28,042 nucleotides of DNA from an uncultured Roseburia sp. GTDB taxonomy: Bacteria; Bacillota_A; Clostridia; Lachnospirales; Lachnospiraceae. Below the pieces are notes generated by a model, which made no database searches, was not told the DNA's origin, and saw nothing but the letters and a program-made list of their open reading frames with translations. Shown one piece after another: positions 10,261 to 26,709 of the stretch. The DNA is taken from assembly GCA_900753715.1 (NCBI GenBank), contig CAAEAE010000155.1, forward strand, positions 1 to 28,042, written 5' to 3'. The position numbers and the translations under genes were made by a program. The first letter of the stretch is position 1; each line of letters starts with the position of its first letter.

Positions 10261-10400
10261 CTTATTGTTCGAACTACTCTTCTCTACACACCGTCTGCAT
10301 CAGACGGAGCGATATGCCCGCTCAGGTTGGCACCTTCCATATGACTATAGGGGTTGCCGTGACTTCATCGATCCTTTGTATCTCCATCACTCTGAATAAG
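10261..10400 (-). promoter_or_regulatory. SAM-I (S-box) riboswitch aptamer
   Basis: Read on the minus strand, the leader shows the S-box core in order: P1 5' side CTTATT (10395-10400), AGAGTGATGGAG, the kink-turn segment GATGAAGTCACGGCAACC, AAGGTGCCAACCTGAGCGGG, a P4 hairpin CCGTCTG-ATG-CAGACGG, and P1 3' side AATAAG (10261-10266). GTGA and TCAC pair to form P2. The aptamer lies directly upstream of an intrinsic terminator and metK. Known S-box RNAs bind SAM and switch transcription off. Confidence 0.96.
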
Positions 10401-10441
10401 AAAATTTTCACAATATTGAATTTTCAAATCTACGCAGATAC

Positions 10442-22922: not shown

Positions 22923-24302
22923 ATGTATACCATTAATTTTCATGAACCCATACATATTCACTTCATCGGAATCGGCGGCATCAGCATGAGCGGTCTCGCA
23001 GAAATTCTTTTAAAAGAACATTTCACCATTTCCGGCTCCGATACAAAAGAATCCGAACTCACAAAGCATTTGTCAGAGCTTGGCGTCACCGTTTTTTATG
23101 GCCAGCGTGCCGAAAATATCACAGATGGCGTACAGCTTGTTGTTTATACCGCAGCAATTGCCCAGGATAACCCGGAGTTTGTCCGTGCCAAGGAACTTGG
23201 TCTTCCAATGTTAAGCCGTGCAGAACTCTTAGGACAGATTATGGACAATTACCGCAATTCCATCGCGGTTGCCGGCACACACGGAAAGACCACGACAACT
23301 TCCATGATCAGCCAGATTCTTCTGACCGCAGCATGTGACCCTACGATTACCGTCGGTGGAATTTTAAAAGCCATTAACGGAAATCTCCGTGTCGGAAAAT
23401 CTTCCTATTTTGTAGCGGAAGCATGTGAATACACCAACAGTTTTCTGCATTTTTATCCGAAGTACAGCATTATCTTAAATGTAGAAGCAGAGCATCTCGA
23501 CTTCTTTAAAGATATTCAGGATGTCCGCAATTCATTCCATCATTTTGCATCCAACACCAAACCGGACGGAATGATTCTTGTCAACGGCGACATTGAAAAC
23601 TATGAGGAACTCACCGCAGGACTCACACAGGAGGTTCACACCTTCGGTCTCTCCGAGCACTGTGAATTTCATCCGGCAGATATTTCCTTTAATGAAAAAG
23701 CATGTGCAACCTTCACAGCAATGCAGGGTAATACAAAGCTTTTAACCGTCACCTTAAATATTCCGGGAATGCACAATGTCTGCAACGCACTGGCAGCGAT
23801 TGCGCTTTGCCTTGAGCTTGGCATTTCCAAGGAAGCAATTGCCGCCGGACTTCTTGCCTTCGGAGGCGCTGACCGCAGATTCCAGTATAAGGGCAGCTTT
23901 GACGGTGTCACTGTCATCGATGATTATGCACACCATCCGACCGAGATTGCCGCAACCTTAACCGCTGCTGCCAATTATCCACATAAGCGCCTTATTCTTG
24001 CGTTCCAGCCGCATACCTATTCCCGCACGAAAGCTTTTCTGGATGACTTCGCCAGAGTCCTTTCTGCGGCAGATGTCGTTGTTCTCGCCGACATTTATGC
24101 AGCGCGTGAGAAGAATACCTACGGAATTTCTTCTAAGGATTTACTCGAAAAGCTTAAAGAAAACGGCACGGAATGCTACTATTTTCCTAATTTCGACGAA
24201 ATTGAACAATTTTTATCAAAAAAATGTATGAACGGAGACCTGTTGATAACTATGGGTGCCGGAGATATCGTAAATGTTGGGGAAGACTTATTAATCCACT
24301 AA
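22923..24302 (+). CDS. murC: UDP-N-acetylmuramate--L-alanine ligase
   Basis: MurC adds L-alanine to UDP-MurNAc with ATP, starting the peptidoglycan stem peptide. The 459-residue protein has the N-terminal Rossmann motif HFIGIGGISMSG (13-24), the ATP-binding GTHGKTTTT (118-126), the conserved EACEY and LNVEAEHLDFF segments, and the C-terminal DDYAHHPTEI and FQPHTYSRT motifs. ATG 22923 is preceded by CAGGCAGG about nine bases upstream. It stands alone between glgC (divergent) and a DnaD-like gene, with a terminator right after its stop codon. A perfect TTATCCACA sequence occurs within its coding region at 23975-23983. Confidence 0.97.
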   Translation: MYTINFHEPIHIHFIGIGGISMSGLAEILLKEHFTISGSDTKESELTKHLSELGVTVFYGQRAENITDGVQLVVYTAAIAQDNPEFVRAKELGLPMLSRAELLGQIMDNYRNSIAVAGTHGKTTTTSMISQILLTAACDPTITVGGILKAINGNLRVGKSSYFVAEACEYTNSFLHFYPKYSIILNVEAEHLDFFKDIQDVRNSFHHFASNTKPDGMILVNGDIENYEELTAGLTQEVHTFGLSEHCEFHPADISFNEKACATFTAMQGNTKLLTVTLNIPGMHNVCNALAAIALCLELGISKEAIAAGLLAFGGADRRFQYKGSFDGVTVIDDYAHHPTEIAATLTAAANYPHKRLILAFQPHTYSRTKAFLDDFARVLSAADVVVLADIYAAREKNTYGISSKDLLEKLKENGTECYYFPNFDEIEQFLSKKCMNGDLLITMGAGDIVNVGEDLLIH

Positions 24303-24303
24303 C

Positions 24304-24321
24304 TTATCCACATTATCCACA
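24304..24321 (+). promoter_or_regulatory. Tandem pair of perfect DnaA boxes (murC end)
   Basis: Two TTATCCACA nonamers lie head to tail with no spacer (24304-24312 and 24313-24321), starting two bases after the murC stop codon. TTATCCACA is the strong consensus DnaA box of E. coli and B. subtilis. The second box is also part of the 5' arm of the murC terminator hairpin. A degenerate box on the other strand (24351-24359) results from the hairpin 3' arm. Confidence 0.72.
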
Positions 24322-24367
24322 TTCAATTGGGGAAAACCTCAACTTTTGAATGTGGATTTTCTTGTTT
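24315..24367 (+). terminator. murC terminator overlapping a DnaA box
   Basis: ATCCACATTCAA (24315-24326) pairs with TTGAATGTGGAT (24346-24357). Inside, TTGGGG and CCTCAA pair with one G-T wobble around an AAAA loop, giving about 18 bp with a small bulge. TTTTCTTGTTT follows. The hairpin lies 12 bases after the murC stop and would end the murC transcript before the DnaD-like gene. Confidence 0.82.
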
Positions 24368-24469
24368 ACATAACATACCTTTTTCCACAATGGCAATTTT
24401 ACCGGAAATAACTCTTCAGAAACCGTTTTCTGCTGAATTCCGTTTTGATTTAAAAAATAAACCACAATT

Positions 24470-24487
24470 TTATCCACATTATCCACA
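24470..24487 (+). promoter_or_regulatory. Tandem pair of perfect DnaA boxes upstream of DnaD-like gene
   Basis: Two further TTATCCACA nonamers lie head to tail without spacer (24470-24478, 24479-24487). They sit in AT-rich DNA about 68 bases upstream of the -10 element of the DnaD-like gene. A near-match TTTTCCACA is at 24381-24389. The spacing places DnaA near position -90 relative to the expected transcription start. This pair and the one at 24304-24321 are the main content of the 295-base gap. Confidence 0.75.
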
Positions 24488-24552
24488 ATTTTGTCAACCC
24501 TTGATTTTGCTGGGTTTGGAAAGAATTTGTACTTCTCTTTTCGCAATTCCTG

Positions 24553-24561
24553 TGCTATAAT
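24553..24561 (+). promoter_or_regulatory. Extended -10 promoter for DnaD-like/loader operon
   Basis: TGCTATAAT (24553-24561) is a perfect extended -10 element, 36 bases before the start codon. No good -35 is seen at 17 bases, so activation by an upstream-bound factor such as DnaA would be plausible. Confidence 0.65.
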
Positions 24562-24597: not shown

Positions 24598-25686
24598 ATG
24601 GGAAAAATTACGCTGCACAGTGACAGTACCACCTCCGCCACCAGCGTTTCCAATATTTTCATTGATGAATATATGACAGATGCTAACGGAGAATTCGTGA
24701 AAATTTACCTGTATCTGCTACGCTTGATGAACGCACCGGAAGCAGCCTTCTCGATTTCCTCCATTGCAGACCGTTTCGAGCATACAGAAAAGGATATCCG
24801 ACGTGCGTTAAGCTACTGGGAGCGCATGCACCTTCTGCGTCTGGAATACGACAGCCAGAACAACCTGACCGGTGTCTATCTTCTAGACTCCGTGCCATCT
24901 GCCGCAAAAGATGTTCCTACAGACAGCACGGCTGTCACAGCGGATGCCAGACCGGAGGAAGCTGTGATGGAACCGGAAGCAGACGATGCCGCTCCGGCAC
25001 GCAAGAGCTACACCGCCGACGATATTCTCGCCTTTACCCAGAGTGAGGATGCGACTGAGCTGCTCTTTATCACAGAGCGTTATCTTGGCAGGACTTTAAC
25101 TCCAACTGATACGGATACGATTTTATATTTTTATGACGGACTTGGTTTTTCCACGGATTTAATCGAATATCTGGTAGAATACTGTGTAAGCAAGGGACAC
25201 ACCAGCATCCGTTACATAGAAAAGGTTGCTCTTCGCTGGGCAGAGGATGATATTACTTCTGTAGAACAGGCAAAACAGGCATCGAACCTGCACAACCAGA
25301 CTTATTTTACCGTCATGAGAGCACTGGGCATTACCGGACGCAATCTGGTCCCTGCCGAGACCGCATTTATTGATAAGTGGAAAAACACCTACGGTTTTTC
25401 CTCCGAGCTTATCTCCGAAGCCTGCCAGCGCACCATTCAGGCAACGCACCAGCCAAGCTTCGAGTATACGGATTCCATCCTCACGAACTGGCTGAAAAAA
25501 GATGTCAAAAGCCCGGCTGATATTGCCCGCTTAGACGCTGAGTTCCAGAGCCGCAAAAAGCCTTCTTCCACCGCGAATGCTGCTTCTGCAAACACAACAG
25601 CCAAAAATAAATTCAACAATTTCGAACAGCGTTCTTACGATTACAACGAAATGGAGCGTATGTTGCTTTCTACCGGAAGCCGATGA
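24598..25686 (+). CDS. DnaD-domain replication initiation protein
   Basis: DnaD/DnaB-type proteins help load the replicative helicase at origins and restart sites in low-GC Gram-positives. This 362-residue protein has an N-terminal winged-helix-like region (about 15-97, with FSISSIADRFEHTEKDIRRALSYWE), an acidic Pro/Ala-rich linker (about 98-138), and two DnaD C-terminal domains in tandem. The first (about 145-225) contains the hallmark YIEKVALRWAEDDI, and the second (about 235-312) the pattern YTDSILTNWLKKDV. The tail KFNNFEQRSYDYNEME is the recurring C-terminus of such proteins. The chosen ATG 24598 has AAAGAGG ten bases upstream; the TTG at 24562 lies on the promoter edge. It is followed after 18 bases by the helicase loader gene. 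Confidence 0.92.
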   Translation: MGKITLHSDSTTSATSVSNIFIDEYMTDANGEFVKIYLYLLRLMNAPEAAFSISSIADRFEHTEKDIRRALSYWERMHLLRLEYDSQNNLTGVYLLDSVPSAAKDVPTDSTAVTADARPEEAVMEPEADDAAPARKSYTADDILAFTQSEDATELLFITERYLGRTLTPTDTDTILYFYDGLGFSTDLIEYLVEYCVSKGHTSIRYIEKVALRWAEDDITSVEQAKQASNLHNQTYFTVMRALGITGRNLVPAETAFIDKWKNTYGFSSELISEACQRTIQATHQPSFEYTDSILTNWLKKDVKSPADIARLDAEFQSRKKPSSTANAASANTTAKNKFNNFEQRSYDYNEMERMLLSTGSR

Positions 25687-25704: not shown

Positions 25705-26709
25705 ATGCCGCTTAATAATTCACAATATGGCGAACTGATACGGGAATATAACGCCAGACAGCTCCGCAACCAGAGGATTACCGAGCTGCGTGCCAAAGAA
25801 GCTTACCGCAAGATTCCACGGCTTAAGGAAATCGATGATGCCATCGCTTCCTGCTCTGTCGCCCAGGCTGCAAAACTCCTAGACGGTGATAAGGAAGCTC
25901 TCTCTACTTTAAAACAGCAGATTGCCGCTTTCCATGCAGAAAAAGAAGACCTTTTAACCAAAGCCGGCTTCCCGGCGGATTTTTTTGAACCGGTCTACAC
26001 CTGTAAGGACTGCAAAGACACCGGATATATCGGTCAGAAGCGCTGTCATTGTTTTAAACAGGCAGCCATTGACTTAGTTTATACACAATCAAACTTAAAA
26101 GATATTCTTACAAACGAAAATTTTGACCATTTTTCCTTCGACTATTATTCCGACGAGGTAAAGGATTCTGCAACCGGCCTTTCCTCTCTCGATGCCGCCA
26201 AAAGTGCTTACGATAAATGCCGTGCTTTTATTTCCGGGTTTAATAAGGGTGGGGAAGCAGCCAACCTATGTTTCTACGGAAACACGGGGATTGGAAAGAC
26301 CTTTCTTTCCAACTGCATTGCAAAGGAACTAATGGATGAAGGACATTCTGTAATTTACTTTACGGCGTTTCAATTATTTGATATATTAAGCAAGGGTGTG
26401 TTTGACAAGGACGAGGATGCCCTCATTGCACACCGCAATATATTTGACTGTGATTTACTGATTATCGATGATCTGGGAACGGAGTTTTCCAACTCCTTTA
26501 CCACTTCACAGCTGTTCTTATGCTTAAATGAACGGATTCTGCGAAACAAGTCCACGATTATTTCTACAAATCTTGGATTAAACCAGATTGCAGATCTCTA
26601 TTCGGAGCGTGTGCTCTCCCGCATTACCAGCAAGTACACACTTATCAAACTTTTTGGTGCGGATATCCGCATTTTAAAGAAAACCATGCCGGCAAAAAGC
26701 ATTCACTAG
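25705..26709 (+). CDS. DnaC/DnaI-type helicase loader ATPase
   Basis: This is a 334-residue AAA+ ATPase that would load the replicative DnaB-family helicase. The N-terminal region (about 1-90) is helical and charged. A zinc-binding cluster follows with Cys100, Cys103, Cys114 and Cys116 (CKDC...RCHCF), as in DnaI. The ATPase core has Walker A GNTGIGKT (192-199), Walker B LLIIDDLG (251-258) and sensor-1 IISTNL, with the arginine-finger region SERVLSRI. The ribosome binding site is GGGAGG. It lies 18 bases downstream of the DnaD-like gene, a functional pair. The gene may be called dnaC or dnaI depending on convention, so the symbol is left empty. Confidence 0.93.
   Translation: MPLNNSQYGELIREYNARQLRNQRITELRAKEAYRKIPRLKEIDDAIASCSVAQAAKLLDGDKEALSTLKQQIAAFHAEKEDLLTKAGFPADFFEPVYTCKDCKDTGYIGQKRCHCFKQAAIDLVYTQSNLKDILTNENFDHFSFDYYSDEVKDSATGLSSLDAAKSAYDKCRAFISGFNKGGEAANLCFYGNTGIGKTFLSNCIAKELMDEGHSVIYFTAFQLFDILSKGVFDKDEDALIAHRNIFDCDLLIIDDLGTEFSNSFTTSQLFLCLNERILRNKSTIISTNLGLNQIADLYSERVLSRITSKYTLIKLFGADIRILKKTMPAKSIH

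Follow-up and report, generated by a model that had tools for sequence, protein, structure and literature searches.

Conserved spacer-free DnaA-box pairs between murC and dnaD in Lachnospiraceae: a candidate control region for the helicase-loader genes

Why should sequences recognised by the replication initiator DnaA gather in front of the genes for helicase loading, in a gap that also ends murC? The question is raised by a stretch of 28,042 nucleotides from an uncultured Roseburia sp. (assembly GCA_900753715.1, contig CAAEAE010000155.1), referred to below as the window. An initial annotation of its sequence had noted five exact copies of the DnaA box TTATCCACA around the end of murC and suggested that DnaA regulates the helicase-loading operon or is titrated there. 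DnaD is needed for initiation in B. subtilis (PMC5295017, in excerpt) and inhibits DnaA oligomerisation in vitro (PMC13220808, in excerpt). Here we ask which of the boxes are conserved, what they are joined to, and which roles fit their arrangement.

Box pairs in the window and among relatives

The genes of the locus and the boxes between them, all on the + strand, are as follows.

22923..24302, +, murC, UDP-N-acetylmuramate--L-alanine ligase (TIGR01082, 505.7 bits, cut-off 335.1)
24304-24312 and 24313-24321, +, pair 1, two exact DnaA boxes head to tail with a 0-bp spacer (sequence match)
24381..24389, +, weak DnaA box TTTTCCACA between pairs 1 and 2, one mismatch to TTATCCACA
24470-24478 and 24479-24487, +, pair 2, two exact DnaA boxes head to tail with a 0-bp spacer (sequence match)
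24598..25686, +, dnaD-like gene, DnaD/DnaB_2 domain in two stretches (PF07261, 146.1 bits; TIGR01446, 81.9 bits); start codon read from the sequence
25705..26709, +, dnaI/dnaC-like AAA+ helicase-loader gene (NF005304, 383.1 bits, cut-off 215)

These domain matches agree with the first description of the downstream genes as encoding a DnaD-domain protein and a DnaI/DnaC-type loader, and dnaI lies 3' of dnaD in 80 of the 81 loci compared below. The family for primosomal protein DnaI, NF006505, matches the loader gene below its cut-off. A PRPP-synthetase-like gene is also present in the window beside these three. An Rfam search over the window placed no RNA element at gathering score in the murC-dnaD gap; the only match in the window is a SAM riboswitch (RF00162, 56 bits, 10293-10402 on the - strand), 5' of a same-strand metK. 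A tRNA search of the window found none.

Exact copies of TTATCCACA begin at 23975, 24304, 24313, 24470 and 24479, all on the + strand as first reported, and the window contains no other exact match. Counting both strands, 0.25 exact boxes and 1.4e-6 tandem 18-mers are expected under a first-order Markov model of the window, against 5 and 2 observed; the initial annotation had put the expectation at about 0.2 sites from equal base use. With up to one mismatch the count rises to 20, where 7.05 would be expected, and none of 100 shuffles gave as many. Clustering well above chance is one of the properties of the non-oriC DnaA-box clusters (DBCs) of B. subtilis.

The box within murC had been counted as part of the cluster, and this view is not borne out. 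The copy at 23975 encodes NYPH and is exact in just 5 of 77 aligned murC genes, window counted, while a near-box at 23924 encodes a DYAH motif that is kept in 77 of the 77. Coding sequence is the best explanation of both, and they were dropped as cluster members. The conserved cluster consists of the two spacer-free intergenic pairs, 24304-24321 and 24470-24487.

To find relatives, an alignment of 29 DnaD sequences was used as the query against genome contigs. Of 256 loci, ranked by similarity to the window, the best 80 were kept; they are therefore enriched in Roseburia-like genomes (most are titled Roseburia, Lachnospiraceae or Eubacterium) and are not independent, L005 and L006 even sharing one assembly. 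Together with the window they make 81 loci, 78 of which have murC directly upstream; the other three (L019, L046 and L059) lie on contigs with no murC match and are left out of the gap counts. The 78 murC-dnaD gaps, 23,921 bp together, contain 231 exact boxes, compared with 13 in 619,251 bp of flanking DNA, an enrichment of about 460-fold, and 230 of the 231 lie on the operon (+) strand, with a single one on the - strand. A tandem pair with at most two mismatches is found in all 78 gaps and in 0 of 1560 simulated gaps. Two such pairs are present in 68 gaps, the second being unrecognisable in 10; at least one exact tandem occurs in 63 and two in 21. The gaps of L076 and L077 are without the second pair and without the hairpin arm described below, and that of L078 has no exact box. 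The boxes are thus kept in these gaps while their flanks drift, the outcome of a check that the initial annotation had proposed.

The distribution of the exact 18-mer, that is the 0-bp pair, extends the observation to the family. It is found in 222 of 397 family genomes (reversed-pattern control, 0) and nowhere in the remaining 175, and in 45 of 291 genomes across Clostridia as a class. When 29 further Clostridia loci were fetched, two were at murC-dnaD and one lay by an hpf-like gene, while the other 26 match none of murC, dnaD, dnaI, hpf, trmB and dnaA. In the genomes sampled, arrays placed at murC-dnaD thus seem to be limited to Lachnospiraceae.

Terminator and promoter context of the pairs

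The two pairs differ in what they are joined to. The following features lie in the gap, again on the + strand.

24315..24360, +, predicted intrinsic terminator of murC, a 12-bp perfect stem and T run (fold -22.5 kcal/mol, z -4.34)
24364..24373, +, GTTTACATAA, a GTTTACATA-like motif after pair 1 that recurs in many longer gaps (sequence)
24495..24518, +, conserved block CAACCCTTGATTTTGCTGGGTTTG, a partial dyad (column profile of 68 loci)
24532..24537, +, CTTCTC at the expected -35 place (column profile)
24553..24561, +, extended -10 TGCTATAAT of the predicted dnaD promoter (sequence and column profile)

The overlap of pair 1 with the murC terminator is a feature that the initial annotation missed. 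In the window the murC stop codon ends 1 nt 5' of pair 1, and a tandem pair with at most two mismatches begins 0 or 1 nt past the stop in 74 of the 78 gaps. The stem arms, which were also found as an inverted repeat, lie at 24315-24326 (ATCCACATTCAA) and 24346-24357 (TTGAATGTGGAT), and the 5' arm takes in seven bases of pair 1, the end of its second box. On the right, 74 of 79 loci have the arm TGTGGAT with a T or A after it. Pair 1 together with TGTGGATTTT is exact in 75 of 397 family genomes (reversed control, 0), and at 30 fetched loci carrying pair 1 and the terminator arm, dnaD adjoins in 30 and murC as well in 29.

To examine the stem, identical hairpins were merged and the arm TGTGGAT was required, which gave 85; removal of five that are not directly after murC (L120, L127, L130, L217 and L227) left 80 distinct hairpins. 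Because the search itself demanded the box arm, the inner pairs alone count as evidence of covariation. The five inner-stem pairs are Watson-Crick in 310 of 400 cases, against a shuffle mean of 154 and maximum of 177, counts that are inflated by relatedness among the sequences. The same pairs slid by one to three positions are Watson-Crick in 15-43% of cases, and each of the five is seen as more than one Watson-Crick type. The covariation indicates that an RNA stem is kept while the stem sequence drifts; the box itself does not drift. A stem followed by a T run, with compensatory changes, is what is looked for in an intrinsic terminator.

It might be supposed that pair 1 is kept chiefly for ending transcription rather than for binding a protein. 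The near-constant hairpin arm and the covarying stem fit such a reading, yet the first box is conserved though it lies outside the stem, and the stretch of stem next to the box varies freely where the box does not. Moreover, in 25 of the 80 hairpins an additional 9-mer close to the consensus lies 3 bp past the second box, within the hairpin, and pair 2 would be left unexplained. We consider a terminator-only role very unlikely.

A GTTTACATA-like motif also adjoins DnaA boxes in L093, L094, L098, L099 and L101, and occurs upstream of dnaA. As a candidate motif of DnaA clusters GTTTACATA is no more than a lead, since genome-wide it fell below its reversed control in three of three genomes (45 against 63, 26 against 80 and 38 against 111).

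Pair 2 is in register with a predicted promoter, the second feature missed at first. In the window it starts 86 bp upstream of the -10. A profile of 68 loci anchored at the first base of the -10 places the box pair at -87 to -70, the block CCCTTGATTTTACTGGGTTT at about -59 to -40, and CTTCTC at -24 to -19, followed by TGTGCTATAAT. A conserved predicted promoter that does without a consensus -35 suggests positive control. The dyad CAAnCCC-N11-GGGnTTG, at 24495-24518 between the DnaA boxes and the promoter, is a possible site for a second regulator. Among eight genomes, six contain the pattern CTTCTC-N15..19-TGnTATAAT, at 8 places in all; 4 of these places are at the dnaD locus, and there was no sign of a regulon.

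Distances were measured by taking as pair 2, in each locus, the pair with the fewest mismatches after pair 1. This gave a value for 64 of the 81 loci; the other 17 lack a second pair or a match to the promoter. Among the 64, pair 2 starts 86-88 bp from the -10 in 27 and 96-98 bp from it in 34, while two loci measure 77 bp and one 84 bp. The two main classes, which hold 61 of the 64 loci, are about one box apart, and many of the 96-bp loci carry a three-box array in which the next box again gives 87. Loci with a single candidate pair (n = 37) fall into the same classes (86-88 bp in 23, 96-97 bp in 11, 77 bp in two and 84 bp in one). A single distance of 87 bp was rejected as an artefact of picking the match nearest 86.5 bp, since the fewest-mismatch count shows two classes.

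The neighbouring distances vary much more. That from pair 1 to pair 2 spans 86-224 bp, and 34-247 bp separate the -10 from the point where the dnaD match begins, which may sit up to a few codons within the gene. A test of the spacing of the two pairs for helical phasing gave R 0.48 near 11.2 bp (null fraction 0.0042), with a period of 12.8 bp doing almost as well; it used the pair nearest 86.5 bp and left relatedness uncorrected. A box position constrained with respect to the promoter is a property of DnaA-regulated promoters, and this held distance amid varying neighbours is the best evidence for a role of pair 2 in transcription.

The zero spacing of the pairs raises the question of which protein reads them. 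We counted head-to-tail pairs with one exact box, at most one mismatch in the other, and spacers of 0-20 bp. At 24 dnaA loci the most frequent spacer is 2 bp (18 pairs), with 5 pairs at 0 bp, 5 at 3 bp and 22 at other spacers of 4-20 bp, whereas at the 81 dnaD loci 0 bp dominates (136 pairs, with 8 at 3 bp and 17 at others). Exact pairs with spacers of 1-20 bp occur in 169 of 397 family genomes, some of these being three-box arrays scored at 9 bp. In E. coli, DnaA has a preference for pairs with spacers of 2-3 bp (PMC11317965, in excerpt); binding of DnaA to 0-bp pairs is therefore putative, and the earlier idea that the spacer-free geometry favours cooperative binding cannot be assumed.

Both the contrast between dnaD and dnaA loci and the E. 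coli preference would be expected if the pairs were bound by a protein other than DnaA, one specific for 9-bp repeats. The repeat unit, however, matches the DnaA consensus exactly; 11 of 12 dnaA loci inspected have one exact copy or more, and 0-bp pairs stand beside dnaA itself in L130. A reader other than DnaA therefore strikes us as improbable. The DnaA helix-turn-helix signature was found in 24 of 24 DnaA genes with loose patterns.

A more speculative and rather doubtful extension is that in Lachnospiraceae the spacing itself is a code, in which 0-bp pairs (9-bp pitch) would mark regulatory or sink sites and 2-3-bp pairs origin sites, through two DnaA assemblies. The murC-dnaD arrays would then form a DnaA switch that couples murC termination to loader transcription, the initiator setting the supply of its downstream partners, with feedback through DnaD. 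The 0-bp geometry offers a direct way to test how DnaA separates regulatory from origin sites.

Genome position, clusters elsewhere and the role of the arrays

Several DnaA boxes beside helicase-loader genes, and window genes that diverge near 22.7 kb, bring to mind a second or displaced replication origin. We sought dnaA and dnaD in 24 genomes and found both on one contig in 14 and on different contigs in 10. In all 14 placeable genomes the murC-dnaD site lies 87-519 kb from dnaA, three of these distances (G327, G349 and G304) presuming a circular contig; in G304 dnaD is near one contig end and a dnaI-like match at the opposite end. At such distances the murC-dnaD site is not oriC, and in G327 dnaA has boxes of its own. 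GC skew in the window is negative through 24.3 kb, so that the site is not at a skew switch beside dnaA, and in the consensus, inspected by eye, the sequence after pair 2 contains no run of DnaA-trios. A pattern search likewise gave no clear trio run between dnaA and dnaN at 12 dnaA loci. Skew and the position of dnaA rule out oriC at murC-dnaD, and we give an origin of any kind here almost no credence.

The site instead lies outside oriC yet close to it in all 14 placeable genomes, as do clusters of the DBC type, and the likeness to B. subtilis clusters away from oriC that had been pointed out is strengthened by this position. Each of 12 genomes holds 60-112 exact boxes, against 9-44 for the reversed 9-mer. 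In G327, with 74 exact boxes, four within 500 bp are found only at murC-dnaD and at the contig end beside dnaA. In G008 the murC-dnaD site, with five exact boxes in about 500 bp (one of them in murC), has the most among the clusters listed.

Judged from strand and side, transcription of the helicase-loader operon meets the fork head-on in 11 of the 14 placeable genomes, despite the proximity to oriC, and is co-directional with it in G057, G157 and G193. By eye, exact boxes also look strand-biased by replichore, with TGTGGATAA on the leading strand, in G095 and less cleanly in G327; perhaps this is plain GC skew.

Arrays of this kind occur at other genes as well. A tool-chosen sample of 28 family loci carrying the exact 18-mer divides into 18 at murC-dnaD and 10 at other places. 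Seven of the ten (L114, L116, L119, L133, L134, L136 and L137) have an hpf-like gene just past the pair, with the boxes in L134 pointing away from it; of the other three, L130 is at dnaA, and L113 and L138 are unassigned. A second recurrent cluster is laid out differently: TTATCCACA is often followed, some 44 bp on, by a near-box and then a 0-bp pair. It is found upstream of the hpf-like gene in these seven loci and L159, or of a trmB-like gene in L093 and L098, both gene names having been given by reading translations. Such arrays are therefore not exclusive to replication genes. The initial annotation had named clusters scattered without relation to such genes as evidence against its suggestion, and the 10 loci away from murC-dnaD partly bear this objection out.

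The position near oriC and the second cluster before the hpf-like gene bear directly on pure titration, by which the arrays do no more than soak up DnaA near oriC and so time initiation, a role proposed for the B. subtilis clusters, the dnaD-dnaI neighbours being incidental. Removal of six clusters from B. subtilis leads to early initiation (PMC5295017 and PMC13220808, in excerpt), which also favours this explanation. Titration alone, on the other hand, needs neither two narrow distance classes to the -10 nor the fixed orientation of the gap boxes, nor their retention before the same operon in all 78 gaps. We regard pure titration as possible, with a minor share of our confidence.

We favour, with moderate confidence, the reading that DnaA binds the murC-dnaD gap as a control region of the helicase-loader operon, conserved in Lachnospiraceae, that also titrates DnaA. 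The boxes with their conservation and register, the overlap with the terminator and the genomic position are results of computation, whereas DnaA occupancy, the sign of regulation, looping and titration are what we infer. The conserved boxes, the presence of dnaI after dnaD, the narrow promoter distances and the proximity to oriC make regulation, titration or both a reasonable reading, so that the original suggestion stands in part, with the murC-coding box set aside. DnaA would bind two co-oriented, spacer-free arrays in the gap. Array 2, at either of the two promoter distances, would tune dnaD-dnaI transcription according to the level and nucleotide state of DnaA, probably by activation at moderate DnaA and possibly by repression when ATP-DnaA is high, a behaviour reported for nrdAB of E. 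coli. Array 1, joined to the murC terminator, may serve as a distal partner site, perhaps engaged by looping, as a sink that titrates DnaA, or to insulate transcription. Lying near oriC, the locus is duplicated soon after initiation and would thereby also add DnaA sinks. The arrangement suggests that DnaA may control its own downstream machinery through these arrays; if DnaA does set dnaD-dnaI transcription, a feedback loop between initiator and helicase supply would operate in a common gut family.

Comparison with known systems

Among the titles listed in the open-licence PMC literature, none concerns DnaA boxes in Lachnospiraceae or before dnaD, and none is a study of replication control in this gut family. 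The eight high-affinity DnaA regions of B. subtilis given in the cited part of PMC4447404 include none at dnaD, dnaB or dnaI. The excerpt of PMC8203912 names nrdAB, dnaN and Caulobacter dnaB as transcriptional targets of DnaA and leaves dnaD and dnaI unnamed. Goranov 2005, as cited in the excerpt of PMC13220808, reported that inhibiting replication altered 71 genes, whose promoters contain DnaA sites; the response of B. subtilis dnaB-dnaI may be among them.

Like the DBCs of B. subtilis, the arrays comprise several near-consensus boxes within a few hundred bp, are intergenic, and lie near but outside oriC; unlike the eight regions just mentioned, they are at dnaD, and their 0-bp tandems are joined to a terminator and stand in promoter register. 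They resemble the E. coli nrdAB and dnaA promoters and that of Caulobacter dnaB in having boxes 5' of a replication-related promoter, but the target here is the helicase-loader operon, the box geometry is different, and a non-consensus -35 is conserved. With B. subtilis incC (BUS), where a distal box works through a loop with helical phasing (PMC6669920, in excerpt), they share a distal box and a co-oriented proximal pair, whereas no DnaA-trios were seen here and a promoter takes the place of the unwinding region. As at E. coli datA, where a terminator and DnaA binding attenuate read-through, a box cluster adjoins a terminator; datA, however, uses IHF, its terminator is that of a tRNA operon, and the cited part of PMC10950094, the source for datA, mentions no overlap of box and stem. 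The murC-dnaD arrays thus belong to a known kind, the DnaA-box cluster outside oriC, in a place and with a geometry that are apparently new.
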